From positions 434,001-498,000 of the forward strand of contig OW569364.1 of the NCBI GenBank assembly GCA_937625935.1: 64,000 bases of DNA, read 5' to 3'. This document shows positions 19,223 through 34,688 of the stretch, in pieces; position 1 is the stretch's first letter, and each line of letters opens with the position of its first letter. The translations under genes were made by a program, and so were the position numbers. This stretch comes from Tetramitus jugosus (lineage: Eukaryota > Heterolobosea > Eutetramitea > Acrasida > Vahlkampfiidae). The notes under the pieces are model-generated. The model was not told the origin of the DNA, made no database searches, and was given only the letters and a program-made list of their open reading frames with translations.

Positions 19223-19226
19223 AAAA
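19223..19226 (-). terminator. Pol III terminator of 5S rRNA copy 1
   Basis: A TTTT run on the minus strand directly follows the 3' end of the 5S gene, the usual Pol III stop signal. Confidence 0.75.
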
Positions 19227-19345
19227 GCCTACATTACTGAGGGTTCTCGAGTAGTCTCCTATCTCAATACTAACTCAGCCAGATGGTGCTTAACTTCTCT
19301 ATTCGAAATGGGAAGAGGTGGTTCCACCATTGTATGAACGTAGAC
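19227..19345 (-). rRNA. 5S ribosomal RNA, copy 1
   Basis: This 119-nt gene is read on the minus strand from GTCTACGTTC to AATGTAGGC. The ends pair to form helix I with one or two G-U pairs. The conserved loop-B/C block CCATTTCGAA...GAAGTTAAGC is present, as is the GGAGACTACTCGAGAACC block matching the canonical helix IV/loop E region. TTTT follows at once. It is identical over its whole length to the copy at 22467-22585. The 5' flank carries retroelement insertions beginning 25 bp upstream. Confidence 0.96.
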
Positions 19346-19385
19346 ACAGAAAGTTAAAATGTACCTGAACAGTGTCGAGCGGAGA

Positions 19386-20740
19386 AAAACGCAGAAAAAA
19401 ACGGAATCACATGTCTGGTGATTCAACAAATTTGGTGAAGGAATACGGCAACAGCCGTTATGCAGTGTGGACCACTGCACGGAAAGGCTCTAGGCCAAGT
19501 GACAGAGAGGTGGTCATTACTGGCAACGGTAATGGTGTCTCTCAGTCATCTTTGGCAAGAAAGATAGGAGAGGAGTTTGGTGACTGGCTCAACCGAGTCC
19601 AGGTCATCAAGAGGAAAGGCCAGCAACGCTTTGTTGCATGGGTGACGGTCAAGGGTGACCGCATCTATGACTTTGTTGAGTTGTTCAACAAAGAGAGGAG
19701 GATTGGCAACAGCACTGCTGCACCCAAGCGCAGTGTTGATTGCACAAGAAAGGTGGTCGTCCATGGCATGAAGAACATGTCAGTGGACGACATCAAGAAG
19801 CTACTGGGGCCTGAGAAGGTTGCCAGTGTGCTCAAGAAGCGTGACACTGCTTTCGTGGTCATGGGTGACGAAACCTATGCACGAGCAGTACTCAGTGGAG
19901 AGAACAAGGTAAAGGCCACGGTCACTCGATACGTCGAGAGACCACATGATCCTCTCAAGGCTGTCAACAAGAGGTTGACGAAGATGTACGAGGAGCTGCT
20001 GACGGTGGTTGACGGACTGCGTCGACAGGTCACAGAACTCACCAAGGAATTAGTAAAGACAAAGGGTCAAGGGGGCAACAAACCGGTACCAATGCCGGAA
20101 CAAGTAGTTGCCCAAGCCACTGCTAGGATGGAGACCACTCCTGAGCTATTGGAGGTAGAAGAACAGAGGACTGTAGCAACACCACTGCCATCAGTGCCTG
20201 TTGTACAGCTCAGTGCTGAGAACCGGCAGATTCTGGAGCAAGTGAATGCCACTTCTCCAGTGTTCGCCAGAGTGAAAAAGGAAATTGCTGCATTGGCGCT
20301 GGCTGCTGCACGCAAAAGGTATGGTTTGACTGAGGACGAACCAGTCATTGTGGATGTGGATGATGACTCCGAAAAGGAGATTCAGAGTCCACAACTCAAT
20401 GACAACAAGAAGAGGAGTGCCAGGATCACACTGGGTGATCTGATGAGCAACAAGGCCCAAAACAAGAAAAAAACAACAGATGGCTCTGTGTCCATCGACG
20501 GTCCTACTACAAGGTTACACCCTTTGATGAAGGGCATCAACCAAAACACTCACCAGAGTGATTATTCCAACCTGTAGATGCACCGTCGGGGACAACAAGA
20601 GAAGAAGAGTGAATGACGCCCTACGGGTCGTCACTCACAAAACAAGTCAATAAATGAGCAATCGTGTGCTTGCTGCGCAAGCACGCAAGCACACATGGTT
20701 GTATGGAACAAAAAAAAAAAAAAACAAAAAAAAAAAAAAA
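19386..20740 (+). mobile_element. LINE-type element A: ORF1-only 'half-LINE' with poly(A) tail and 16-bp TSD
   Basis: The 1,355-bp body is bounded by a perfect 16-bp direct repeat, CAGTGTCGAGCGGAGA, at 19370-19385 and 20741-20756. It has a ~25-nt leader, one complete ORF (19411-20577), a stem-loop just after the stop (20609-20618 with 20629-20638, one mismatch), AATAAA near 20650, a second hairpin (GTGTGCTTGC with GCAAGCACAC) and the terminal motif GTTGTATGGAA followed by two A runs. The target-site duplication starts 25 bp upstream of the 5S gene. There is no reverse transcriptase, so the copy needs one in trans. Confidence 0.85.
19411..20577 (+). CDS. Retroelement ORF1-type nucleic-acid-binding protein
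   Basis: 388 aa from the ATG at 19411. The frame is open a little further upstream, but that part lies in the target-site duplication. Residues about 26-95 and 111-165 each look like an RRM-type alpha/beta unit (REVVITGNGNGV...QQRFVAWVTVKG and RKVVVHGMKNM...DTAFVVMGDETYARAVL). Residues about 180-215 form a short coiled coil (LTKMYEELLTVVDGLRRQV), and the C-terminal third is Pro/Val/Glu-rich. RRM-like units plus a coiled coil are the layout of LINE ORF1 proteins that bind element RNA as multimers. I see no CCHC knuckle. The frame is intact, which suggests recent insertion or continued function. Confidence 0.75.
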   Translation: MSGDSTNLVKEYGNSRYAVWTTARKGSRPSDREVVITGNGNGVSQSSLARKIGEEFGDWLNRVQVIKRKGQQRFVAWVTVKGDRIYDFVELFNKERRIGNSTAAPKRSVDCTRKVVVHGMKNMSVDDIKKLLGPEKVASVLKKRDTAFVVMGDETYARAVLSGENKVKATVTRYVERPHDPLKAVNKRLTKMYEELLTVVDGLRRQVTELTKELVKTKGQGGNKPVPMPEQVVAQATARMETTPELLEVEEQRTVATPLPSVPVVQLSAENRQILEQVNATSPVFARVKKEIAALALAAARKRYGLTEDEPVIVDVDDDSEKEIQSPQLNDNKKRSARITLGDLMSNKAQNKKKTTDGSVSIDGPTTRLHPLMKGINQNTHQSDYSNL

Positions 20741-20767
20741 CAGTGTCGAGCGGAGATGTCTCAAGAC

Positions 20768-20855
20768 AACTCAACGAACACAAGAAGCGTTCAGCACGCT
20801 GCCGCAACGTGGTGCGTGGGCACCATTTGTTGTATTAAAAACAAAAAAGTAAAAA
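20768..20855 (+). mobile_element. Short 5'-truncated LINE insertion B, with 17-bp TSD
   Basis: The 88-bp body lies between perfect copies of CGGAGATGTCTCAAGAC at 20751-20767 and 20856-20872. It holds a small hairpin (TGGTGC with GCACCA around a GTGG loop), a 3' motif TTGTTGTATTAAAAAC similar to the GTTGTATGGAA end of elements A, C and D, and an A-rich tail. Its first TSD overlaps the second TSD of element A by six bases. Removing A places B 35 bp upstream of the 5S gene, so B is probably the older insertion. Confidence 0.65.
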
Positions 20856-21157
20856 CGGAGATGTCTCAAGACTTCCCACCACAAGAATACAGTAAGGTGA
20901 ATAGCTTTGCCGACCAGTGCACAAGAACATCGAAGGACAAAACAGTAACCACCCCTCGCGGGATTTTTCTTGAAACAAATAAGGAAAATTGCTGTAGTGG
21001 TTGCTTATTACTCATTGCCTGAGATACAACAAAAGAGATGGCAAGGATGAAATGTTCCGTTTTTATTATGGTTTTGTGGAACTTGAGGGATCAAGCCCTC
21101 ATTCATTGCTTGTGGAACATTTTTGGTTGGAACTACAATTATCGCAAAGTGCACTTC

Positions 21158-22156
21158 ATGGAGCCGATCACTGAAATTTGTTCTGCTCTTTGCACGGATA
21201 CCTGGTCAAAAGTCATTGAGTTTTGTGACACTCGAGAATGGTTGCAATTGAGTTACACTTGCAAAGGAATCAATCAATTTAAATTCAATCGATGGCTCAT
21301 GTCCAACAAGAAGAGAAGGCTAAAACGAGGTTTGGAAGAGAAAGAAATTGAACACTTTTTTCGATTAGGAAAAGGAACACTGTTTAATGTTTGCTTGGCC
21401 TTGCGTCAGAATGTGGTGGATGAACATTTTCAATATTTGGAAGGCATTCACACGCTCTCTATGGGTGGTTGCAAGCGGATTACGGACAGTGCTTTTGCTC
21501 ACTTGACTGGTATCCATACACTCTCTATGGTTGGCTGCAAACAAATCCCAGACCATGCGTTTGTTCATCTGGCTGGCATTCATACGCTCCACATCGGTGG
21601 TTGCAAACAAATTACAGACGAGACATTTTCTTACTTGTCTGGCATTCATACGCTCTACATGAGTGGTTGCCACCAAGTCACTGACCATGCATTTTCTCAT
21701 TTGGCTGGAATACATTCACTCCACTTCGCAGGTTGCAAGCAAATCACGGATGATGCATTTCCATACTTGTCTGGCATTCACACACTCTCTATGGGTGGTT
21801 GTGAGAATATTACAGACAATGCCTTCACTTATTTAACTGGCATTCACACACTCTCTATAGGTCGTTGCAAACAAATCACCGATAATGCTTTTACTCATTT
21901 GGTTGGTATTCACACACTTAATATGAGTTATTGTACGAGCATCACAGACAATGCATTTCAGTATTTGACTGGCGTTCAGAGACTTACAATGGATGGATGT
22001 GATCAAGAATCCATCACAGAGAAAGGATTCCTTTTCTTGAAGGGTATTCACACACTTCGTTGGTATCGTAGCCGAAGAGACAATGCCTTTAAAAAGAAAG
22101 TGATTGGTTATTGCGAGTCCAGTTCGATAGCTCTTTATGGCATGGATGGGGAATGA
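21158..22156 (+). CDS. LRR protein with ten tandem 22-residue Cys-containing repeats
   Basis: 332 aa from the ATG at 21158 (MEPITEICS); the frame is also open from 21038, adding 40 mostly hydrophobic residues. Residues about 8-45 (TDTWSKVIEFCDTREWLQLSYTCKGI) may be a degenerate F-box. From 21443 eight units of exactly 66 bp encode GIHTLSMGGCKQITD.AF.HL. variants, followed by two degenerate units (22- to 24-residue type). This is the cysteine-containing LRR class found in F-box/LRR proteins. The units are very similar to each other in DNA, suggesting recent expansion. The gene sits between the two 5S/retroelement units. Confidence 0.8.
   Translation: MEPITEICSALCTDTWSKVIEFCDTREWLQLSYTCKGINQFKFNRWLMSNKKRRLKRGLEEKEIEHFFRLGKGTLFNVCLALRQNVVDEHFQYLEGIHTLSMGGCKRITDSAFAHLTGIHTLSMVGCKQIPDHAFVHLAGIHTLHIGGCKQITDETFSYLSGIHTLYMSGCHQVTDHAFSHLAGIHSLHFAGCKQITDDAFPYLSGIHTLSMGGCENITDNAFTYLTGIHTLSIGRCKQITDNAFTHLVGIHTLNMSYCTSITDNAFQYLTGVQRLTMDGCDQESITEKGFLFLKGIHTLRWYRSRRDNAFKKKVIGYCESSSIALYGMDGE
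21443..22090 (+). repeat. 66-bp tandem repeat array inside the LRR gene
   Basis: Eight consecutive units begin with GGCATTCACAC-like sequence every 66 bp, then two diverged units follow. The reading frame is kept throughout. Such an array can change copy number by unequal exchange. Confidence 0.9.
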
Positions 22157-22462
22157 CAGGATAAATACATTATCAGTACAGTAAAAGAGAACCAGCAACA
22201 GATCCAATGGCAACTTGGTTTATATTCGAGGTAGTTTCAGAGTGTGCTTGGTTGAGGTACACTTAATATCAACCTTATTCAGAACTCAAGTGGGTCTCCT
22301 TATGTTCCTCTCCTCTTCTCTCCCAATGTGTACTCAGATCCTAGAATCACAGCTCTTTGGGTCACAGATTTGATCACATTCACTTTGATGATATGCACTA
22401 CAAGAATCGATCTCATCTGATCATTTTGACGGAGCTCCACAAATGCAGTCCAGTGAGAATGC
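22157..22462. other. Intergenic between LRR gene and 5S copy 2
   Basis: No gene or repeat was recognised in these ~300 bases. Only the AAAAGCC at the junction resembles the flank of 5S copy 1. Confidence 0.4.
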
Positions 22463-22466
22463 AAAA
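22463..22466 (-). terminator. Pol III terminator of 5S rRNA copy 2
   Basis: A TTTT run on the minus strand immediately follows the 5S 3' end, as for copy 1. Confidence 0.75.
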
Positions 22467-22585
22467 GCCTACATTACTGAGGGTTCTCGAGTAGTCTCCT
22501 ATCTCAATACTAACTCAGCCAGATGGTGCTTAACTTCTCTATTCGAAATGGGAAGAGGTGGTTCCACCATTGTATGAACGTAGAC
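22467..22585 (-). rRNA. 5S ribosomal RNA, copy 2
   Basis: This 119-nt gene on the minus strand is base-for-base identical to copy 1, while the flanks beyond a few bases are unrelated. The same helix I pairing, GAAGTTAAGC block and TTTT terminator are present. A LINE fragment with target-site duplication begins 24 bp upstream of its 5' end. Confidence 0.96.
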
Positions 22586-22623
22586 ATTAACAATGAGTTT
22601 GAGAAATTGCTGACATTTTTTAT

Positions 22624-23785
22624 AGCACACACAAACGCTCATTCGGTCGAGCATTTTCCAATCCAACAATCGTCTTCGTGAGGCCAAGCATTCATACTTG
22701 GTATGGTGCGCCAAACTCCTCCACAGTGCGGAGGTAATCGTGAGCCAAAAGAGCGGTCACGAATGCGAGAAGTGCAGCATCGGTTGGCATCTCCCCTCAG
22801 GAGATGCCAAGCTGCTCTTGAAGAGTGGAATCACGAAAAACTCGCAACTGTTCGATGAGGATGGAATAATGGTCATTAAACTGGAGGAGGCCAAGAAGAA
22901 GTTCAAGCTGAAAGGAGTCGGTCCTGCAAGGTACTCTAGGATAAAGGCCTACATGGAGCTCCTTGGAAAACCATGTGAAGAAAGTTGGAGGAAGCAGAGA
23001 GCAATGAAAGATGCCGTAGAAGTGACGGCAGATGGCAGTGTTCTCAGCAATCCCAATGTAAGAGAAGGTTTGATGGAACATTTCGCGCAAGTAAGAGCTG
23101 AGTCTATAAAATCAGATGGAAACTGGAAGTTAGAAGCTGAACTGCAGAAGGATAAGGAGTGGAATGAGTCCTTGAAGTGCCCTTTCGGTCTAGAAAGAGG
23201 TGAGTTGTGGTTTTATCACCAAGTCCGGAGTGGCACCCTGCACACAAAGACTGTAGTACGAGATCTGTATGAACCACTGATGGAAACCATGTGTGCTCAT
23301 TGCAAGAGCGAACCGGAGACGATACTACACCTCTTGGTGGAGTGTGAAGAAGCCAAAAGAGCAAGAAGCGAACTAGTGGAAGAATTCAAGGTTTCATTGA
23401 ACAAACTGGAGTTTATGAGACCAGCCAAGCTCAATCTCTGGTTTGACAATGCGGTGTACGATGATGGCAAAATGCTACCTCGGATCCCCAGTCGAACATC
23501 GGAAGAGCTGCTGGCAGGACTAATGGGTAAAGAAGAGGACCAGAAGGAGGTACTGATGAAGGAAATGGTAGTATATGGCCGCAAGAAGCGGGAAACAAAA
23601 GTGAAAAGATTGGTAAATGCAATGAAAAGATCTTGCATCAAACGAATGTACAAAGTCTGGAAAGACTCGCTAGCGAAGAGACATGCACAATAGCTCAGAA
23701 CCTGCGGTTCTGAGCGACGACATGTCTCATAGTAGTGTATTGAATAAAGTGGCAACAACTGTTGTATGGAAAAAAAAAAAAAAAA
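22624..23785 (+). mobile_element. LINE-type element C: 5'-truncated copy with 3' end of ORF2
   Basis: The 1,162-bp body lies between perfect 15-bp repeats, GCTGACATTTTTTAT, at 22609-22623 and 23786-23800. It contains an intact 3' portion of ORF2, a perfect 10-bp stem-loop overlapping the stop codon (23693-23702 with 23706-23715), AATAAAGTGGCAAC, the terminal GTTGTATGGAA and a poly(A) tract of about 16. Lack of the endonuclease and reverse-transcriptase domains shows 5' truncation, typical of target-primed reverse transcription. Confidence 0.9.
22626..23693 (+). pseudogene. LINE ORF2 C-terminal fragment with CCHC zinc motif
   Basis: The frame is open from the element boundary to TAG at 23691-23693 (355 codons) with no stop inside, but it lacks its own start and the catalytic domains. 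The diagnostic part is CAHCKSEPETILHLLVEC, a C-x2-C-x8-H-x4-C motif found after the reverse transcriptase in many non-LTR retrotransposons. A second Cys pair (ECEKC) lies near the beginning. The basic end (KRLVNAMKRSCIKRMY) resembles the end encoded by element D. The intact frame suggests a young insertion. Confidence 0.8.
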
Positions 23786-23800
23786 GCTGACATTTTTTAT

Positions 23801-24047
23801 GGAACAACGATGGGACTGTAGAACGTGCTCTTCGAATGAAGGGCCACGAAAAACGGAGTGAGACAAGAGTTATCGCATCGAAAGGCCCACAGCTTCGCAG
23901 TCTTTTTGCTAAACAAGGAAGAAGTACAGAGCAAGTTCGCGTCGTGTTCAAAAAGAGAATTATTGTGTCATGAGGAAAGACTTACGGCAAAATAGAGCCA
24001 TACTTTAAACAGTCAATTAATTACTTATAACGACAAGCAATGTTACG
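23801..24047. other. Intergenic with a possible remnant ORF
   Basis: After the second TSD of element C a frame of about 56 codons, rich in Arg/Lys (RALRMKGHEKRSETRV), ends at TGA 23970-23972. It has no clear start and no family I recognise, so it is not called as a gene. Confidence 0.3.
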
Positions 24048-24440
24048 CTACAATTTTTGTTTGTCCACAACAGGTCTGATGAAGCCCCACCAGGCGGTCG
24101 TTATCGCCCCCACAATCAATGAAACAACATAAAATCCAATACCATTCGGGTGAGCCTCGCGGTAATTCCCTCTCAAGAATGTTCCCATATGAACCAAGGT
24201 GTAAACGCCGTTGGCACGAATAATGAGCTTCTTTTGTTGTGCTGGTGCTTTCAAACCTGCAAAACACAAGTATGCCACTATCGCATCACCACTTGCCAAA
24301 GCTTGAACCCAAAGTTCAGCTGAAGGAGTTGGGATCCCTCCAAAGTATATAATCGTGTGAGCCGGTGCTAACAAGTACAGCAAGGTCGAGAAGGTGGCCA
24401 AGCTGCCCCAGACACAAAAAAACAAGTTGATTGCTTTCAT
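24048..24440 (-). CDS. Small four-TM membrane protein, unknown
   Basis: A 130-aa protein with hydrophobic segments at about 5-27, 43-63, 75-90 (weaker) and 101-121, with short loops and a basic end (DKQKL). I do not recognise the family. Its ATG lies only 11 bp after the stop codon of the upstream phosphodiesterase gene, so its promoter must lie inside that gene or the two are co-transcribed. Confidence 0.7.
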   Translation of the reverse strand: MKAINLFFCVWGSLATFSTLLYLLAPAHTIIYFGGIPTPSAELWVQALASGDAIVAYLCFAGLKAPAQQKKLIIRANGVYTLVHMGTFLRGNYREAHPNGIGFYVVSLIVGAITTAWWGFIRPVVDKQKL

Positions 24441-24451
24441 TTTTTTCTTCT

Positions 24452-26583
24452 TTACATGTTGGGTTCGTGACGTACATCAGTATCTCTTCGAACCAGGAAT
24501 TCAGGTTCCACAGCCTCATGTTCTTCCCAATATTTCTTTGTGTCTTCCAGGTAGTTGAGAATAAATTTCATCTGTGGTAGCATTTTGGAGAAGGATTGAA
24601 ACATGGGGATCACAAGATAATTCACAAATGCAATCTGACCCTTTCCCATGTTGGCCTTTGTGCGGTCCATGAGTGGAGTGACAGGTAGTTCCAACTCTCT
24701 TTCTTTGTCGCCTTGAAGATAGAACTCATCTACAATTCTCTGGGCCCACTTCAAGTAGAGATGGGTTGGTCGACTGGTATTGTTCACATCGGCAACCTTG
24801 ATTATTATTTGCAGAATTAGTCTAATGTCTTCCTTCTTCTTGTAATTGATGCCATTTTCTAGTTTTCCCTTGAACTTGGCAACAAGTTTAGCGTGTCTAC
24901 CCATGTCTGTAGCTAACACCACATCAATGACAGTATCTCTAATTTCTTTCCTCTTTTCTCCTGATAGTCCTGAGAAGATGTTGAATTGAGGCGATTTCAT
25001 CAGTTCGAATGATTGAGCAGAGTGATGATTTTCTAGGATGGAACGATCATTGTAAAGAGTAGCGAGATAAGACTTGGCATTCACTAAGAAAGCATTGTTC
25101 AGTCCTGGATGATCATAGTCATGAATGATTGCGGACAACAGAACAGAGAATATTTCTTCATCCTTAAGGAACTCGGATGCTCCTCCCTTTGCAATTGTGT
25201 AATGAACAACTTGCAAAACATCTGCAGCATGCATGGAGTTGTGATACGGGTTTGGATGATAGCCCGATTCGACTTCCTTCAAAAAATTAATCAACACTTG
25301 TTCGGGGATGTTAAACTTGTTCACGAAGTCATACTTGACCATCAATGTGTAAGCAGTGACGAATAGAACATGGCCATTAGTATACTCATCAATTGCAAAA
25401 ACGTCAAAGTCCCAATCATCCACTCTATCGAATGTTTCTAATATTGCTTGCTTGTCTTTGCTTATTTCTGCATTTTCGGAATCCCACTGAGATCTAGGAA
25501 TTAGAGCAACTACATCTGTCTCCTTCGTTGTTCGAGCTTCAGAGGATGGAACTGAGAACTTGCTTTTCAGATATCCCATTACTTCCATATCTACAACATT
25601 GTCGATGGAATTGGAGAATTGTACGTCCCATTGTTCTTCGTTACACAGGATATTGACAACTTGATTGAAACTTTTTTGCTCGTTTTCTGTAATTGCATTG
25701 TTGGCAATCAGTTTGCTCTTAATTTCGGTCAAAAACTTTAGGATCTTATCAGCGGGAACACCTACTAGATTGCTGTCTTGCTGTTCATTAATGTGCTTGA
25801 CTTCTTCAGTAGTATTCGATGGTTGAGCAGGTGTGGTTTCTTTCTCAGGAAACTTTGAGTTTTGAGGTTCTCTTATTGTTGGTTTCTGAGGTTCAAAGTC
25901 GTCCATTAACTCTTCCTCTTCATAATCTTCTCCATTCTCAAGAGCTAGAATTCTGTTTTCATATTCTTTGATATCGGCTTCCAGTTTAACAATTTTCTCT
26001 GAACCGAGTCGAGCAGAGTAGAATTGATAGAGAGGACTTAGAAAGACGCTCGAGATTCTATGATAGGGATTTTCAACCTTGTTCAGCACGAGCTTCAGAT
26101 TTGTTGTTCCAATCGTAACAAAGTTGAATTCGAGGTTGAGTTTACAGATGGATCCTTCTTCGGTCTGGTCCAACTCCAAAGCAACCTTGTTGTTGAAGAA
26201 TGAGTGCTTCAGAGCATTGAGAAATTGCCAGGTGGAGATGGTTCCATTGACATTTAATCTGTCCCTCTAAATTCACAATAATATGTCAACAAGTGACTCA
26301 ATAATGACAAGAGCAACCAAAAACATACAGTTTCAATCAATTCATCCTCCAGAACAAACTTTTCATAGTAATTTGCGTCATTGTCCACACATGCAAAAAC
26401 CATGCTTCTAAAGTCTGATGGAACGTGAGCTGTACATAGAAAAGCATTCTTGTCCACAAACGCCTCCGTAAATAGTGGTGGAAGAGTGGCCAAATAGGAA
26501 TTGAATCGAGCTCCTTCCTTGTCTGTTATCTCTTCACCATTCATGTGATTCACAATATCAATTTTACTGTTTCCACATCCCAT
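24452..26583 (-). CDS. Class I 3',5'-cyclic nucleotide phosphodiesterase
   Basis: Two exons, 26583-26329 and 26266-24452, 689 aa; the 62-nt intron has a GTATGT donor and TTTAG acceptor, phase 0. The N-terminus MGCGNSKID has Gly2 and Cys3, a likely myristoylation/palmitoylation signal for membrane anchoring. A charged coiled coil lies near 170-200. The catalytic domain spans about 400-665: YHNSMHAADVLQVVH (about 426), HDYDHPGLNN (about 467) and KVADVNNTSRP hold the HD-type metal ligands. It hydrolyses cAMP and/or cGMP; specificity cannot be read. No GAF or PAS domain is visible in the ~400-residue N-terminal part. Confidence 0.92.
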
Positions 26584-26758
26584 GTTTTATTAGGTATAGT
26601 CGGTGTTGTTATTTGTTATTTGTGATTGTTGTTGAACGAGTAGCAAATTGGAACTGTACAGAGCGGGTAGTTTGACTTCGACTCCGAAGGGACTTTCGTA
26701 GACGGCGAAGCTCAGAAGACAACGGCTATGAGTTTTGGCGGCGCAAAAGGCCAAAAGC

Positions 26759-29700
26759 TCATTTGAGAAGCAGTTTCACTGCAACCGCAACAGACACCAG
26801 ACCAAGAAATCCTATGATGGACCATGTTAGGATTCGGAGCAAAGAGTTTGTTGAGCTTGCAACTTGTTGTTGATATGTGAAGAGATCTGCGGTTGACAGA
26901 GGCTCAAATGGTGCTCTGTTTTGCGCCTTCATTCCCGTTGATTCTTCATGTGCTGTTCTACGATCTTTCTGTTTCTGCTCTTGCTTTGAGGTTTCTATTT
27001 GATACAGAATCTGGTGCAGAACCTCATTATCAATACTATGCTTGTAGATATCTGATTTGTGCTTGTACCATTCTTGTAACTGTTGCTCAAAGTCTTCTCT
27101 GTGTCTGATTTTGGCCTTGGAACTCTTGTCTGTTGATACAGACATGTTGAACAGGATATTGTTCAACTCGAGCTCAAATAATGTTGTTTGTAACTTGTAG
27201 GCTCTCACATTGTTTTGCAACTCTTCTAATGATCGAATAATGCGATTTTGCCTTGGCACAACAATGAATACACATAAAATACAAAGGCAGGTGATGATCC
27301 ATACAGGTATGTTCACAGATCCAACCAACTTGTCAGGGATACTCATCATGAAGCCCAATGCGTCTGCGAGAAGGCTGGATAATGTTGCCTCCTCAATAGA
27401 TGTAGTTGCAGAAGCTGTCGAGGTTGCTGTAAATGAAGGAGGTAGAACTTGCTGAATTGTTGGAGTCGCTGATGCCCGAGGAGTGACATGGATAGCAGCA
27501 CTAGAAGATTTCTTTCGATCTTTCTTCGTAGCTGTTGCCGCTTTCTTGGAGGACTTACTCGATGGTTTACGATTTGCTTTGCTCGATGAAGACTTCTTCT
27601 TCTCACGCTTTGCTTGAGATAACAATTGTCCCTTGCCCTTTGCATCTAAAACGGCAGCTTTTGCTTGTTCGTACCACAGGCAGTATGAAGATGATGTTTC
27701 CTTGAATGCAGAATCTTCAATCTTCCATCTCAGAAGAGTGGACTTGATGAACATGACACCTAGTTCAATTCGGACTGAACATGTATTTGGCTCCGCGCCA
27801 TCCTTGACATAGATATAGATAATGATACGGAAACAATCTGCATATGGTACATCCAAACTATGCATATTACTCTGAATAACAAATCCGTGACTGTCTTTAG
27901 CCAGTGTGAGCCGTTGGACCATCTTAATACGCGTGATCTTTGGACCTATGGGATTACTCACGGGGCTCATGAAGGAAATGTCTCTTGTCTTTCCGATGCC
28001 ATCAGATGAATCCAACCATGAGGACACTTGGAAGTCAGTATCACCTCGCGTCACATGATGTTGCTGTTCAAAGGGAGAACCATCAGCAGTAATCAAGAAA
28101 AAGAAATCTTTGGCAGAGCATGGCAAAGTCTCATTCACAATATCTTTTGGCTTAAATTTGTCTTTTGCGGGGAAAGTGTCACTCGTAGGTACTGCATTCA
28201 AATCGAGAATGTCACTAGGTTCATAATTGTGTTGATTTCCCGGAACATCTTCCTCTGGTTCTTCGCTCTGTGAACCTTCCTCTGGTTCATCTTCTGCGTG
28301 ACTACTCTTCGGCTTTTTGCCCTCGTCATCTTCTCCATCTTCATCCCCACCAGCATCACCGCCACTTCCATTGCTTTGTTTCTTTCGATCTTTTGAGTTA
28401 CCCTTGGAGGATTCTCCACTTGTGTTATTCTTTGAAGCAGAACCGTTTGCGGACACAGTCACATTTTCTTCTCCGGATGACTTGTTTGAGAATGTCATTC
28501 CCTTGGGAGCACTTCGAGGAGTAGTTCCCATCAGAGGGTGCTCTCTACGGCCAGATTCACTCGGATACAGAGTATTCTCGTGAGGCACATGGTTTGTATC
28601 TACGTGGAGCTTTCTTGGTGCTTCAGACAAAGTTTCCTTTGAGTATTCGCTAGGTGACACAACTGATGATGTTGAGACGAGCTCAGAGTCAGTTTCAACT
28701 TCAGTCTCCAATTCGGACTCCTCTTCGTTTGCTGTTGTATCAGTTGTTAAGTCTTCGGTGTCCTTCAGCACAACAACTTCGGTTTCTTCGTCTTTTGACT
28801 CGTCATTCAGATCTTGAGGCTCTACCTTTTCGACAATTTCAGTCTCAACTTCTTCTAATTGTGTGTCACTATCATCATCGTCATCTTCGCCATCTTCTGT
28901 TTCTTCTGACTCACTCTCTTCGTCGTCATTGTCTTCCTCCTCCTCTTCTGCTTCATCATCAGAATTTCTCAACGGATCAGTAAATGTGTCCTGCATTGTA
29001 TCTATACTGACGTTTCCATCTTTTATCATCTCTCTTCGTTCGAGTTGCTTCTCGTTATGAAGACTCCACAGAGCTTCCAAAATCTTAAATGTCTGGTCTC
29101 TGAACACAAAGGATCCAAAAAAGTGTACTTGACCATCCTTGCACACAAATTCAATCGCATTTGGAACAACGATCGCAGTATACTTTTTCTCCAGCAACAG
29201 AATGCTAGAGAAGGGAATGGCAAGGTTGGTCTTGTAACCAAAAATGTTTGAAGTAAAGCATACATAGTTTTGAGAAATGTACATTCTTCCTTGATTGGGC
29301 ATTCTCCTGTAATATGCACAATACACCTCTACATAAGTTACAATAAAAAGTGTGAGTTCAACTAACAATAATCTCTTTAAAGAAATGTTAGTAACATCGG
29401 GAGCTTCATCTGATAAACTTACCTTCTACAACCTTCTCTGTTGGAGGAACATTGAACAATGATAGGAAATACTTGTTTCTCTCTTGATTCAACTGTGGTG
29501 TCGAACTGAGTGCCAACTCATTGGGATCAATGTCCAACAATACCAATTCATCATCTACATTTTGTTCCATAATGGATTCTTCATGATGAACGTGAGTGCC
29601 TTCATCTTCCTCCTCTTCTTCTTCTTGCTCATCCTCACTTTTCTTGTGATCAAAGTATTCGTCATTCATACGATGATTAGAGAGATCAACTGAAGCAGCA

Positions 29701-30521
29701 GCAGCAGCAGGAATCATAAAATCTTCCAAGAGTGGATCATTGACTTCCACTTGTGCCTCTGAATGGCGCAACTGATTCGATGAGTAAATGTTGAGTGATT
29801 GAACTGAACTTAGCTTAAATGATTCATCATCATCATCATCATCACTCTTATCATTGTCATCATAGTCTTGTGACTCATCAATGAATGATGAATCATTATT
29901 GCTATAAAATTCTTCATCTTCTTCTTCGTTTTGATGATGAATGTTGTCAGTAGTAGTAGTAGTAGTAATAGTAGGATTACTGATGATATGGCTGTTGGTC
30001 ATGTTGTGGTTGGTGAATTGTTGGTGAAGCTCTTCATTATCATCAGTATCATTACTATAAGTGAAAAATTCATCATCATCATCATCATGCTCTTCTTCTT
30101 CTTCTTCTTCCTCTGTTGTATCATATGCTTCTTCATGCAATGACGATGATAATGATACTTGAGTTTTTACAGTTGGTGGAGAGTGATTGTTGTTGGTTTC
30201 AACGGCATGTTGTTGCTGTTGAGCTAATTTGTTCAAATTTTGCTGTTGTTGCTGCTGTTTGAGAGCTGAGATAGAACTGTCGGAGAAATAAGACACAGGA
30301 TCGAGTTGGTGAGGGTGATTGGTTGGGTGGAACCTGTTGGTTGTTACCAGGTCATCTTCAGCCATTGTTGGTGATGTGCTGTGGATATTATTATGGTGGT
30401 GGTGATGATGAGTGGTTTGTGCGAAATGAATTCTCTCCAGTAGGTTAAAATATTTGGGTTGTTGTTGAGTTTGGAGTTGGTGTTGTGCTTGTGAGGAATT
30501 TTTTTGTTCGTTTTGCGCCAT
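26759..30521 (-). CDS. GRAM-VASt membrane protein (Lam/GRAMD1-type sterol transfer family)
   Basis: Two exons, 30521-29423 and 29328-26759, joined in phase 1 (94-nt intron, GTAAGT...TGTAG), 1,222 aa. Residues 1-350 are low complexity: poly-Q, H, D/E and N runs. The GRAM domain (about 352-455) is split by the intron: FNVPPTEKVVEG then PNQGRMYISQNYVCFTSNIFGYKT. A long acidic linker follows. The VASt domain lies about 768-945 (CSAKDFFFLITADGSPF, then FRIIIYIYVKDG). Hydrophobic segments at about 1,035-1,055 and at the extreme C-terminus (WSIIGFLGLVSVAVAVKLLL) would anchor it in the ER. Lam/Aster proteins move sterol at membrane contact sites; a second C-terminal TM and the giant acidic linker are differences. 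Confidence 0.88.
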
Positions 30522-30913
30522 TGAAACCTAGCTATTTTTATATTTGAGCTGAGGCGGGATTCTTTTTGAGCGAACTGGTGGTGTGATAACTTGAGTTCAA
30601 ATGATGGTGTCGATGCAGAGATTGGTTGCATGAGAGATCATTCAAGGATATCATCAAAGTTATAAACAAGGAATCATATACAGTAGAAATCTCTTTTCTT
30701 CACAATATGCACAATAGGTCCGGATCTTCCAGTTTGGAGAGTTCGTTTTTTGTCACTTGTCATCCTTTTTTCTTGTTTCGAGTTGAGAGAAGAAGATTTC
30801 CCTCCGGAAGAAAAACAAAGAAGAAGCCAACCAATCAAAACAACACCATTATCATCGATTAGGAAAATCCTTCTATCCCCAACCAACCTACCATATATCG
30901 ATATAGATTTTGA
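30522..30913. promoter_or_regulatory. Divergent promoter region, GRAM-VASt and membrane protein genes
   Basis: This 392-bp gap between divergent starts has A-rich stretches before the plus-strand ATG and ATATCGATATAGAT near 30896-30909. No gene was recognised. Confidence 0.4.
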
Positions 30914-32392
30914 ATGCTAGAAAACAAGTCAATTGGGGCTCGATACACCTATACCAATGTTTCATTGCGGACTTTTTCACTGTGTGCAGTGTTCATGGTG
31001 TATGTTCTGTTGATGCTGTATGCAGTGTTGGGTCTGCTCGTTGGATCCTACAATTCAGTGACTTGGCAAAAAGGAACTTGTCATGTTTTGTCCTATTCCA
31101 ATCACACTACTAGTAGCAGTAGCACCAGTGGTAGCGATTTGCAAAGTGAGATTGATAACGCAGAAATTTCTTCTTCTTTGCAGCGATTCGTGCTTCAACC
31201 AAGATTTCTTTGTGCTTCTGCTAGTGTTCACTATGTGTCGTCACAAGATCAATTGAAAGAAGTGAGCGCATCCAACTGGATATATCATTATAACCGAACA
31301 GACACTGAAATGTATTATTGTGCTGTTCGTGCGACACAAAAGAAAAACAAATCGTTGCTTGAAAAGAGTGTGCTGAGTTGTGTACAGGAGGAAATTGTTG
31401 CACGCCCGTCCAATTATTCTTATAATTGTACGATGAATATGGTGGAGAGCAATGGTGGTGAATATGTATGGGAGTGGGGAGCTGCATTGAAGAAACGAAG
31501 TGAAAATGTACACTCGTTTTTGGTCATTGTGTTGCCTGTAATGATTACAGCTCTCGTTGTTATCGTTGCTTCATTCATCTCACTCTTGTTCATCAAGATT
31601 CGAAAAGATCACAATAGCAATAACAAAAAGGTGTCTCTATGGGAGTATCTAGGACCCAGAGATGAGAGCACGGGTGTAGATATGACTGGTTATGAGTTTG
31701 TGAAGAGTATTCCGTTCGCGAGCTACCAGAAGAAAATGGTTCACATTATGCAGCGGAGTCGAGGACTTAGAGCGGATGGCAGTGGTGATTCGTGTGCGGG
31801 TGAACAAGAACCGTTTCCACCTCAAGATGTTCCACCTTCTCCCGTGAGCAAGGATGAAGAACAAGTCATTGATAATGATGTTCTGTGGACGTATAGACCG
31901 CCTGTTATGGGGCAATTGGCAAACAGGAAATCCGCACTTGCGATCTATTTGATAATCATGGCTGTACTATTCGGATTTCTGTCGCTGTGTATCACTGGTG
32001 GTGTGCGGAATCAAAGCTTTTTGATCTCATTCCTCTGTTTGTACTGCGTTTTATTGATGGTCGTGTGCACAGTCATGTTTTATCATACGGTGAGCAGGAC
32101 AATGTACATAATGACAGTGGATCGAATCTTTGTGATATACAACAGATTCTTTTCGATACACATTTACTGCATCGAAACGAATAAGCTAGACCATGTGGAC
32201 TACAATATTGAGGGCAAGAATGTTGTTCTGGGCAAGGTCGTTCTCCAGCACAATGTGTTTGTTCCCATTCAGTTCGACTATGTTGTCGATGTGAACTATG
32301 TTCGCTCCGTCGTTGAAGGCAACAGAGCTACCACCCAAACACCCTTTGACTTTCACCAACACCGGAGTCATGCCATCGACTATTTTGACTGA
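30914..32392 (+). CDS. Multi-TM membrane protein with glycosylated ectodomain, unknown
   Basis: A 492-aa single-exon gene. TM1 is at about 20-45. An ectodomain of roughly 150 residues carries several N-x-S/T sites and paired Cys, then TM2 follows at about 204-230 (FLVIVLPVMITALVVIVASFI). A cytosolic loop with Pro/Ser/Asp comes next, then TM3 (about 345-365) and TM4 (about 370-395), and a ~100-residue beta-rich tail. I do not recognise a family. The N-terminal half (TM, glycosylated loop, TM) has the same layout as the gene at 42961-44518, but sequence relation is not evident. Confidence 0.7.
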   Translation: MLENKSIGARYTYTNVSLRTFSLCAVFMVYVLLMLYAVLGLLVGSYNSVTWQKGTCHVLSYSNHTTSSSSTSGSDLQSEIDNAEISSSLQRFVLQPRFLCASASVHYVSSQDQLKEVSASNWIYHYNRTDTEMYYCAVRATQKKNKSLLEKSVLSCVQEEIVARPSNYSYNCTMNMVESNGGEYVWEWGAALKKRSENVHSFLVIVLPVMITALVVIVASFISLLFIKIRKDHNSNNKKVSLWEYLGPRDESTGVDMTGYEFVKSIPFASYQKKMVHIMQRSRGLRADGSGDSCAGEQEPFPPQDVPPSPVSKDEEQVIDNDVLWTYRPPVMGQLANRKSALAIYLIIMAVLFGFLSLCITGGVRNQSFLISFLCLYCVLLMVVCTVMFYHTVSRTMYIMTVDRIFVIYNRFFSIHIYCIETNKLDHVDYNIEGKNVVLGKVVLQHNVFVPIQFDYVVDVNYVRSVVEGNRATTQTPFDFHQHRSHAIDYFD

Positions 32393-32559
32393 TGAAACAA
32401 TTCATGAGGCCACAAAGAAACAAAACTGCGAGTCGCACGAACATGCAAAAAACACTGGTGTGTTCATGATTTGGTTGGCAATCGACATCATCCATAAAAA
32501 ACCTTTTCACACGAACAAACAACCTTGTTCATCAAAGCTCCTTCCAGATATCTCCAAAA

Positions 32560-33927
32560 ATGAACTCCTCTGCTGTTCCTTCCCTCAAAGTGCCGCTCAT
32601 AGTATGCCTTATCGTAGCATGCAGCTCCTTTCCATTCAGTCTTTTGCACTATTTCCTGCCTCAAATGTTGCAGAAGCAGTTCAATATATCTAATGAAGAT
32701 TTGGGACTCTATTCTGGCTTGGTTGACTTTGCCGACTCGTTCACAAGCTTCATTAGCTCTGCTTTCGTGGGCTATTTGTCTGATATCTATGGTAAAAAAC
32801 CATTGTTGGTTGTTTCGCTGTTGTGTAGCTTTTTGCGGTTGGTTCTGTATGCGTTTATACGTGATGTGAGGTTGTTGATTGGTGTGGAGTGCCTTTATGG
32901 CTTTGTGAATTGCACATCTGTGATGGTCACTGCTCTGATGGTTGAGTTTTCAACCAATGAAAACAGAGTCAGATTGTTTGGTTACATGACAGCGTCCTAT
33001 GCTCTGTCTCGGTCTCTGAGCTCACTAGTTGGTGGGTTGCTCGTCCATTTTGAGAGTGGATTCAAGGTTGACAATCCATATGCCATTTACTCTCTGTTGT
33101 CTGCTTGTTTGACACTGGTGTCCATTGTTTTGTCTCATGACATACCATTGTCGTCGTCACTTGAACAACCAAGGAGCAGCAACTCGAACACACAAGACGA
33201 TCTATATTATCCCAATTCCACACTGCCTGAAAACTTGCAACGGTTTTTACAGAATTGGTTCAAGGAGTTGAAGTGGGTGTCTAACAAGAAGGCATTGCTA
33301 TTGATCATGTGTCGCGGCATGATCTCGTTTGCCTCTTCAACACTGCTATGGACATTGTTTGCTTTTACTCCGTTGAGAGATTATGGCTTAGACTTGAGTT
33401 CTCTCAAAGTTGGTCTCATTTTTATGATGTATGGACTCATAAGCTTCGGTTTCCAGTTTGTGCTGTTTGATCGTGTCGTGGGTGCACTCGGACTACGTGG
33501 AACGTTTATCTTGGGTGGTTTTCTATCTGCGACTCAACTACTGTTACTACCAATATCGCCACTGCCCTATTGGAGCTCGGACTATCAGCCACTGAACCTC
33601 AATGCCTCTCTGTATGTGGTCACCTTTATTTCGATTGGTGTTGCTCTGTATGCAGTTGGAGAAGTGATGAGGCCAGCGTTGGATGCTATGATTGTCAATA
33701 CGACAGATTTGGGAAAGCAAGGAATCGTTCAGGGTGTATCTCGCATGTCTCACGTTTTTTGTGACGCGGTTGGAAGTATTATCGTTGGATGGTTGTATTC
33801 TTACTTCGTTCGAACTGGACATCCAATCTATGTGTTTGTTTTCTCAGCAACCTTTTATTTGGTTCCTGCACTTGTCGTGTACAGAATGGACAATACTTTG
33901 GAAGTACATAAGTCCACGCGCAGATAA
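32560..33927 (+). CDS. Major facilitator superfamily transporter
   Basis: A 455-aa single-exon protein with about 12 hydrophobic segments in two halves and a hydrophilic central loop (about 205-230). The MFS motif-A-type loop between TM2 and TM3 is clear: GYLSDIYGKKPLL. The GLYSGLVDFADSF region before it fits the tetracycline-efflux/ZINC-induced-facilitator branch. It probably exports or imports a small organic solute across the plasma or vacuolar membrane; the substrate cannot be read. Confidence 0.88.
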   Translation: MNSSAVPSLKVPLIVCLIVACSSFPFSLLHYFLPQMLQKQFNISNEDLGLYSGLVDFADSFTSFISSAFVGYLSDIYGKKPLLVVSLLCSFLRLVLYAFIRDVRLLIGVECLYGFVNCTSVMVTALMVEFSTNENRVRLFGYMTASYALSRSLSSLVGGLLVHFESGFKVDNPYAIYSLLSACLTLVSIVLSHDIPLSSSLEQPRSSNSNTQDDLYYPNSTLPENLQRFLQNWFKELKWVSNKKALLLIMCRGMISFASSTLLWTLFAFTPLRDYGLDLSSLKVGLIFMMYGLISFGFQFVLFDRVVGALGLRGTFILGGFLSATQLLLLPISPLPYWSSDYQPLNLNASLYVVTFISIGVALYAVGEVMRPALDAMIVNTTDLGKQGIVQGVSRMSHVFCDAVGSIIVGWLYSYFVRTGHPIYVFVFSATFYLVPALVVYRMDNTLEVHKSTRR

Positions 33928-34006
33928 GATAAATGAATAACTTAACTCAAGCTCAATTTTTGCTTGTCTTGTCGCTGTGCCACACAACCAAAACTAACTA
34001 AAAACC

Positions 34007-34010
34007 AAAA
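34007..34010 (-). terminator. Pol III terminator of tRNA-Ser
   Basis: A TTTT run on the minus strand lies three bases after the discriminator base, followed by GG and another T run. Confidence 0.75.
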
Positions 34011-34013
34011 TGT

Positions 34014-34095
34014 CGCCCACTGTAGGATTCGAACCTACGCGGGATGAACCCAACGCATTAGCAGTGCGCCGCCTTAACCACTCGGCCAAATGAGC
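34014..34095 (-). tRNA. tRNA-Ser (GCT anticodon)
   Basis: An 82-nt class II tRNA. The acceptor stem GCTCATT pairs with AGTGGGC (with G-U pairs), discriminator G. D-arm sequence TGGCCGAGTGGTTAAGGC, anticodon loop CTGCTAA with anticodon GCT, a long variable arm, and the T arm GTAGG-TTCGAAT-CCTAC fit tRNA-Ser for AGC/AGU codons. No intron. The A and B boxes coincide with the D and T arms. A retroelement fragment begins 46 bp upstream. Confidence 0.96.
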
Positions 34096-34153
34096 TTGAT
34101 ATATTCCGATATATTACCCCGATATTACAACCAAATATATCAACCAACCCGAC

Positions 34154-34479
34154 GTGGGGAAGGAGATACGAGGGAGGATATCACTACGGCACTCCAAAGG
34201 TCGGGATGCAAGCCAAAAGACGCTGTAAAGAGGGTAGAAAATGTGATCAACAACACCAAAAGAATGTGCATCAAAGCACTCCACACGCTGTTCACTGCCT
34301 CAAAGGAACGGTGGAGAGAAACAATGATCAGCACTACAAATGTTAGTCCTCACGGACTTGAAGACGATAGGGAGTGATACGATACTCTGCACCGTGACGG
34401 TGCAGAGTAGAATTGCTTCTAAAATGTTGTAAAGAATAAAGTGGCAACGCCAGGTTGTATGGAAAAAAAAAAAAAAATA
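34154..34479 (+). mobile_element. LINE-type element D: 3' fragment upstream of tRNA-Ser
   Basis: The 326-bp body lies between perfect 13-bp repeats, CAACCAACCCGAC, at 34141-34153 and 34480-34492. It contains the last ~74 codons of ORF2 (stop TGA at 34375-34377), a perfect 12-bp stem-loop (34383-34394 with 34398-34409), AATAAAGTGGCAAC and GTTGTATGGAA followed by poly(A), closely matching the end of element C. The TSD starts 46 bp upstream of the mature tRNA 5' end. Confidence 0.88.
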
Positions 34480-34688
34480 CAACCAACCCGACACACAAAA
34501 TGCATTCTGGGCTGAAGCTTGTGATGTACGTAGTTAGTCAAACCTAAGGGGAACTATGATACTATGATGCACCTGTCTACAGAGTGTTGACACACCAAAA
34601 TGATTTTCCGATCCAAAAAAACACCGCTTCTTCACACAACAAAAAAAAACACAACGAATCAACAGACTCAGAGAGAGGACCAACAACA

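Follow-up and report, generated by a model that had tools for sequence, protein, structure and literature searches.

In the genome of the heterolobosean Tetramitus jugosus, retrotransposon copies were found inserted at a near-fixed distance upstream of recognised tRNA or 5S rRNA genes and oriented divergently from them, and lineages defined by their second open reading frame (ORF2) differ in the distance, or register, that they keep. Four such insertions, A to D, lie in the window, that is, the whole 64-kb stretch that was analysed (assembly GCA_937625935.1, contig OW569364.1, positions 434,001 to 498,000), where they had been described by a sequence-only reading. It is highly probable, in our judgement, that they are copies of one superfamily of long interspersed nuclear elements (LINEs) of the apurinic endonuclease (APE) type and of its derivatives carrying ORF1 only, guided by the RNA polymerase III (Pol III) initiation complex and with registers that are inherited along the lineages.

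The offset of each insertion was taken as the number of bases between the gene and the start of the target-site duplication (TSD). Class 1, the GTTGTATGG lineage, lies 23.4±1.0 bp from 5S genes (n=10, range 22-25) and 28.1±1.0 bp from tRNA genes (n=27 of 28, range 26-30), while the main class 2, the GTTGTATT lineage, lies 34.6±0.9 bp from 5S genes (n=5, range 34-36) and 39.8±1.3 bp from tRNA genes (n=6 of 7, range 38-42). The outliers L095 and L064 were kept in the lists and omitted from these means; with a small third group, the median offsets at tRNA genes are 28 (n=28), 40 (n=7) and 31 (n=3). The difference between the two classes, 11.4 bp, is close to one turn of DNA and was reached by none of 20,000 label shuffles. 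Offsets at tRNA genes exceed those at 5S genes by 4.7 bp in class 1 and 5.2 bp in class 2, a shift of about 5 bp that would fit measurement from the transcription start if tRNA leaders here were about 5 nt long. TSDs are about 16 bp long (11-20). Nine events (window B and D, L115 X, L115 Y, L102, L097, L007, L002 and L003) were added or corrected by hand, most of them by eye. A single family with a single distance is excluded by the several lineages and registers.

The positions were also recovered by a scan blind to the elements, which looked for a repeat that begins close to the gene and occurs again behind a run of A's. A TSD at offsets 10-80 was detected at 46 of 97 distinct Pol III genes; in six control windows of equal width, placed further out from these genes on the upstream side, the counts were 0, 0, 1, 0, 0 and 0 of 90-95. 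Because some stretches were fetched by tail, the 97-gene set is enriched for insertions; the 46 matches came from tail-selected stretches (26), the window (3) and gene-selected loci (17), and the gene-selected loci alone showed a match at 17 of 62 genes. On the downstream side a match was seen in 1 of 104 gene records, and the one reverse-orientation match (L091) sits in an element already read as divergent.

The survey covered the 26.35-Mb assembly that holds the window. The class-1 tail GTTGTATGGAAMAAAAA (at most one mismatch), corresponding to GTTGTATGG-poly(A) ends, was counted 145 times, against once for the reversed control pattern, and the class-2 tail GGTTGTATTAAAAAAAA, corresponding to GGTTGTATT-poly(A) ends, 75 times, against 0 for its control. 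We read 47 stretches, which represent 50 of the 100 listed class-1 tails (145 counted) and extend about 1.6 kb to the 5' side of every tail. These were chosen by tail and not by gene, in contig order up to the 77th tail; the 27 skipped among the first 77 comprise 12 near a listed gene, 11 that have a reverse transcriptase (RT) domain no more than 4 kb away, and 4 lacking both. The 50 unread listed tails include 15 with a divergent listed gene within 2.7 kb, 15 more with an RT domain and 20 with neither. The sources of class-2 events were the loci selected by gene, the window and a small number of chosen elements, with no sampling by tail.

A tRNA or 5S gene was present in 33 of the 47 stretches, that is, for 36 of the 50 class-1 tails, and neighbouring coordinates add genes for three more: L098 has a tRNA gene with a class-2 copy stacked between, L100 a listed tRNA gene 2.4 kb off, and L102 a tRNA-Gln gene just past the end of the read stretch. 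All 39 of these 39 genes beside fetched tail copies lie on the 5' side of the element and on the opposite strand, and within 2.7 kb of the 100 listed tails there is a single codirectional listed gene, for which a nearer divergent tRNA-Gln accounts. Approached from the gene side, 29 of 56 nuclear Pol III genes found by gene search had element coding homology within 1.5 kb upstream, the nearest piece being divergent at 28 of the 29 and codirectional at L023; about half of the sampled 5S and tRNA genes therefore carry element pieces upstream. Such homology was found downstream of 5 of the 56, and some of these pieces may belong to other Pol III genes. The sequence-only reading had named a sharp genome-wide peak at about 20-60 bp upstream in one orientation as what would support it. 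The survey, which took in about half of the copies listed, gave a sharp upstream peak in a single orientation, tighter than had been guessed and split into lineage-specific registers.

The 5S rRNA genes of this genome are scattered over many contigs, and at least 47 were found, the window's two not included. The mitochondrial tRNA loci L039, L040, L062 and L063 were excluded from the gene counts; the tRNA hits of contigs C54 and C56 agree in kind and position, L062 holds an sdhB ORF, and the two contigs are apparently two copies of one mitochondrial genome.

In the window, a search of both strands at the Rfam gathering threshold matched two 5S genes and one tRNA-Ser gene, all on the minus strand, and no further Rfam family in the 64 kb. 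The features of the three genes and four insertions are as follows.

19226..19345, minus strand: 5S rRNA gene 1, target (Rfam RF00001, 100.4 bits)
19368..19385, plus strand: left TSD of insertion A, offset 22-24 from 5S gene 1
19386..20738, plus strand: insertion A, a non-autonomous class-1 element with ORF1 only, closed by a hairpin, GTTGTATGG and poly(A)
19411..20577, plus strand: ORF1-like ORF of A, 388 aa, coding sequence identical in L072
20658..20706, plus strand: hairpin at the 3' end of A, with the tail motif (from the RNA fold of 20655-20709)
20739..20756, plus strand: right TSD of A, exact repeat of 19368-19385
20751..20767, plus strand: left TSD of insertion B, 17 bp, offset 34 from 5S gene 1 with A removed
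20768..20855, plus strand: insertion B, a short class-2 copy with a GTTGTATT tail, resembling the L041 ORF1-only type
20856..20872, plus strand: right TSD of B, 17 bp
22466..22585, minus strand: 5S rRNA gene 2, target (Rfam RF00001, 100.4 bits)
22609..22623, plus strand: left TSD of insertion C, 15 bp, offset 23 from 5S gene 2
22624..23785, plus strand: insertion C, a 5'-truncated class-1 LINE with the 3' part of ORF2
22626..23690, plus strand: C-terminal ORF2 fragment of C, 355 aa, zinc-finger region
23786..23800, plus strand: right TSD of C, 15 bp
34014..34095, minus strand: tRNA-Ser(GCT) gene, target (ARAGORN and Rfam RF00005)
34126..34153, plus strand: left target copy of insertion D, exact 13 bp at 34141-34153
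34154..34477, plus strand: insertion D, a strongly 5'-truncated class-1 copy with a GTTGTATGG-An tail
34478..34492, plus strand: right TSD of D, 15-bp reading by eye, exact 13 bp at 34480-34492

Most of what the sequence-only reading had said of these loci held. Rfam agrees with its three Pol III genes, every one of which carries a divergent LINE insertion, with all four insertions on the plus strand and the genes on the minus strand. The TSDs lie where it had placed them, with a 16-bp core in A (18 bp as the maximal exact match including flanking A's), 17 bp in B, 15 bp in C and 13 bp in D. Its distances for A, B and C agree with 22-24, 34 (A removed) and 23 bases between, as it had counted the next base. 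Its distance of 46 bp for D corresponds to 45 bases between as read and is probably inflated by an indel: the left copy is TACAACCAA[ATATATCAACCAA]CCCGAC and the right copy TACAACCAACCCGAC, and read by eye the TSD is probably 15 bp long, the left copy having later gained 13 nt. The offset then becomes 30, close to the 28 of D's own lineage. Assignment of all four copies to one LINE family proved true of A, C and D, which are class 1, and failed for B, since its GTTGTATT-An tail and its match to the L041-type element place it in another lineage with another register. C is a LINE truncated at its 5' end; A falls short of a full LINE, being a derivative that carries ORF1 only. The element in A is about 1.35 kb long, as are many fetched copies (about 1.30-1.35 kb); its ORF is homologous to the ORF1 of L044, a full-length element, with 40% identity across 207 aa, and the fold of its 3' end (20655-20709) has -27.1 kcal/mol and a z of -4.1. 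The ORF2 fragment of C matched zf-RVT with E=0.0014, below the Pfam curated cut-off, and is 74% identical to L006 ORF2. Between B and the second 5S gene lies a 372-aa ORF (21038-22156), labelled by eye as leucine-rich-repeat-like. A transporter encoded in the window matched, among 8000 candidates considered, records that were distant or bore no name.

The registers follow the relationships among the elements. In a tree of ORF2 C-terminal sequences (24 rows), the copies at the class-1 register form one clade with support 100/99, and those at the class-2 register form one clade with weaker support, 74/57. The L002 lineage is separate in that tree and has a full-length copy at 31-32 (by eye, L121, L125). 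L003, whose match was too short for inclusion in the tree, is 68% identical to L002 and has an offset of 32 with a 17-bp TSD (by eye). The L007 lineage has a full-length-sized copy of about 5.3 kb, with ORF1 and a stop-interrupted ORF2, at 40 bp with one TSD mismatch (by eye).

The coding sequences and copies have the features of APE-type LINEs. The ORF2 reverse transcriptase matched RVT_1 over the cut-off (E=6.8e-29), and the best Protein Data Bank (PDB) sequence matches of ORF2 were R2 retrotransposon proteins, through the RT region. The N-terminal endonuclease matched Exo_endo_phos_2 (PF14529) in two of four sequences, with a best E of 8e-4 and the domain start missing; its best PDB profile match was the TRAS1 endonuclease, a weak match with E=0.07. 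GDHN in four of four and SDH[LI]P in three of four endonuclease regions are motifs which we take to be apurinic-like. A zinc-finger region matched below cut-off, and no RNase H family matched in the ORF2 sequences scanned. Together with poly(A) tails, variable TSDs and frequent 5' truncation among the copies, these matches identify the elements, as far as sequence can tell, as APE-type LINEs. ORF1 had no Pfam domain over the cut-off, giving weak, partly coiled-coil matches, and a PDB match of ORF1 to 8vd6 (E=1.4e-10) was disregarded as it covered 25 residues with no stretch passing alone. A full-length class-1 element with both ORFs was not found, and a search for full-length class-1 5' ends at C26 and C6, and for those of L001 and L005, met no gene. 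For L002 ORF2 a single close relative was found, P0001, a 682-aa NCBI protein from a 3.1-kb contig, with 47% identity over about half of it.

The 3' ends that were seen have a GCAAC...GTTGT-type hairpin, and of six that were folded, three were clearly better than shuffled sequences. ORF1-only derivatives occur in both classes, with proteins 49% identical and with the same 3' end as the LINEs, and would have been moved by ORF2 in trans. Pooled pN/pS (the ratio of non-synonymous to synonymous polymorphism) was 0.29 over 19 intact class-1 ORF1-only copies, and two pairs, window A/L072 and L096/L111, are identical over the whole ORF; this suggests selection on ORF1 and recent activity. In L103 and L113, the last 30-60 bp before the tail have in common only AATTTTTATTCG...TGGTTGTATGG and then diverge, possibly a form akin to short interspersed nuclear elements or an extremely truncated one.

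The distances appear to be set by a ruler and not by a target sequence. TSDs vary from one tRNA gene to the next, and over all class-1 sites no conserved target motif was found beyond T-richness, which lies just gene-proximal of the cut (positions -3 to -1; 46-57% T in class 1, n=35, and 60-80% in class 2, n=10). In L057 and L060, the class-2 TSDs correspond in sequence to the 5' end of a class-1 element with ORF1 only, whose ORF lies beyond the class-2 insertion, so the class-2 copies inserted into that older element, at offsets 40 and 39. Similarly, L115 holds a class-1 copy at 28 and a later L002-type copy at 30, and L102 lies at 29 upon another old element (by eye). Among 175 listed tails, 23 pairs of neighbours less than 3 kb apart share a strand and 1 pair does not.

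We propose that the assembled Pol III initiation complex, and most likely TFIIIB within it, serves as the docking site of the retrotransposition complex. The endonuclease would first nick the non-template strand of the gene at the gene-proximal TSD edge, 23-40 bp upstream, since, for a plus-strand element whose poly(A) points away from a minus-strand gene, the primer for target-primed reverse transcription is the bottom-strand end at that edge. Reverse transcription from this nick would put the poly(A) end of the element away from the gene, and a second cut about 15 bp further out would yield the TSD. The register may be set by differing docking geometry in ORF1 or ORF2. As the target factor would reassemble after each insertion, newcomers would arrive gene-proximally and stack, the newest closest to the gene. 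The odds somewhat favour a further step, in which the Pol III promoter is partitioned among LINE lineages: heritable, base-precise rulers of the ORF2 lineages, of about -23, -26 and -35 from the start, would share one docking surface and cut inside the TFIIIB footprint, and the register would be an evolvable, possibly swappable module that leaves ordered stacks at each gene. If this is true, roughly one turn of DNA separates the two main rulers. The two well-supported registers, together with natural target swaps, would allow the docking residues in ORF1 or ORF2 to be traced by sequence comparison, and the insertions could serve as a genome-wide marker of active Pol III promoters with an in-genome record of insertion order. 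The system also bears on the design of safe-harbour insertion without a sequence match, and discovery of new Pol III genes guided by the offset may be possible, L077 being a case to consider.

Several observations weigh against this picture. L095 at 35 (class 1) and L064 at 71 (class 2), both at tRNA genes, fall outside their registers. The third register, at 30, 31 and 32 bp, comprises three events, all at tRNA genes, and these (L002, L003 and L115X) carry GTTGTATT- or GTTGTATA-type tails; a class-2-like tail at this register means that tail and register are not strictly coupled, so a strict tie between them is excluded. At L074, L090, L101 and L109 a gene is present and no clean TSD was seen, and the L109 element begins about 5 bp from the tRNA gene. 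No Pol III gene was recognised in 6 of the 47 stretches although they reach past the element (L075, L077, L085, L103, L110, L113), and five others end before the 5' end of the element (L080, L088, L089, L094, L104). In L077 (C6:164390-166040) a class-1 insertion flanked by an exact TSD of 12 bp lies far from all known genes and has no tRNA, 5S or convincing Rfam gene ahead of it; it is either off-target or adjoins an unrecognised Pol III gene. A signal recognition particle (SRP) RNA gene had been suspected there by eye and was rejected, as L077 has no Rfam SRP match and the SRP genes lie elsewhere. Codirectional pieces occur upstream at four gene-selected loci (L014, L015, L023, L046), lying further out than the nearest piece in L014, L015 and L046; L014 and L015 are two head-to-head 5S genes with a common flank. 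Neither the U6 genes (C9:55665, C13:146367) nor the SRP RNA genes (C1:279667, C14:417866, C26:335000) have a tail within 10 kb among the tails listed, which, from five genes, argues weakly against every Pol III promoter being a target. Finally, contact with TFIIIB is inferred, position and orientation could partly come from selection after insertion, and, as 5S flanks are partly alike (TTCCAC occurs within 4 of 10 class-1 5S TSDs), sequence may contribute at 5S sites.

Carried to its extreme, selection after insertion would mean that insertion is broad and that survival is limited to copies with this upstream placement and orientation. The genome appears compact and rich in genes, and most coding insertions would be lost; however, standard deviations of 1 bp and registers 11 bp apart would hardly come from selection, the recent identical-ORF pairs are already in register (A/L072 at 22 at 5S, L096/L111 at 27-29 at tRNA), and the TSD scan is almost empty elsewhere upstream, so that we regard this as very improbable. 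It is scarcely credible that the endonuclease instead reads a DNA sequence in the 5' flanks of Pol III genes, as sequence-specific LINEs do: the T-rich bias next to the cut and TTCCAC at 5S sites would favour it; against it stand the mutually different TSDs at tRNA genes, the 39-40 bp held by L057 and L060 inside the 5' end of another element, and the tRNA/5S shift, which is about equal in both classes. The sequence-only reading had suggested recognition of TFIIIB or TFIIIC. The most plausible inference is that the Pol III initiation complex is recognised, since TFIIIB and Pol III serve 5S and tRNA genes alike although the internal promoters of the two differ, and since both registers shift by about 5 bp between them. 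Within that complex, TFIIIB is the preferred landmark since the registers lie within the yeast TFIIIB footprint on the 5S gene, about -40 to +5 (PMC5391098), a span that overlaps with the present 5S registers. A landmark consisting of Pol III itself, or of TFIIIC, is possible but unlikely; both also occupy the two kinds of gene, and in yeast Ty1 relies on Pol III (PMC10050235), whereas a single fixed offset from the 5' end would be unexpected if boxes A and B were read across tRNA types and a differently built 5S promoter. Direct descent from the dictyostelid element TRE5, with no independent system, appears rather improbable. The ORF1/ORF2 layout with APE, RT and zinc finger, the divergence and the kinds of target are shared (PMC5911963), but tRNA offsets of 28, 31 and 40 differ from about 40-54 bp. 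Moreover, among the best 120 relatives of the mitochondrial SdhB, the eukaryote-named one is from the heterolobosean Acrasis kona (59%) and not from a dictyostelid; a higher-scoring one, at 73%, carries the label of a Haloplasmataceae MAG, which is probably wrong.

Tx1-clade LINEs are sequence-specific and insert inside tRNA, 5S or small nuclear RNA genes. The elements described here are likewise LINEs tied to small RNA genes, but their site is outside the gene and there is no common target sequence at tRNA genes; a conserved target of the kind that defines sequence-specific LINEs was not found, with the reservation of TTCCAC in 5S TSDs. The yeast retroelements Ty3, guided by TFIIIB, and Ty1, guided by Pol III (PMC10050235), are also steered by the Pol III machinery, but are long-terminal-repeat elements with an integrase and do not use target-primed reverse transcription. 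Closer in kind are the dictyostelid non-LTR elements NLTR-A and NLTR-B, which insert upstream of tRNA genes at 2-6 bp and about 50 bp, with tRNA as the sole kind of target tabulated; they have an RNase H domain (PMC5006619), unlike the ORF2 sequences scanned here. Going by titles and abstract openings, with subscription literature sparsely covered, no earlier report of Pol III-targeted LINEs beyond dictyostelids was found, and the present elements would thus be a second LINE system with base precision at Pol III promoters. TRE5 is, by its published description, the closest in behaviour: it is an APE-type LINE with ORF1, an APE-RT-zinc finger ORF2 and an oligo(A) tail, and, like its non-autonomous form, it inserts in opposite orientation upstream of tRNA genes (about 40-54 bp) and 5S genes (35-42 bp), with 59-85% of insertions at 47±3 bp in three data sets (PMC5911963, PMC5391098). 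At tRNA genes its insertions fall just upstream of the TFIIIB footprint (PMC5391098), and the TRE5 literature, as far as it was available, mentions no lineage-specific registers. The elements of T. jugosus share with TRE5 the APE-type and the divergent position upstream of both tRNA and 5S genes; they depart from its offsets, most of which are at 47±3 bp, in lying at 28, 31 and 40 bp from tRNA genes and 23 and 35 bp from 5S genes, within the yeast 5S TFIIIB footprint and in registers specific to their lineages.

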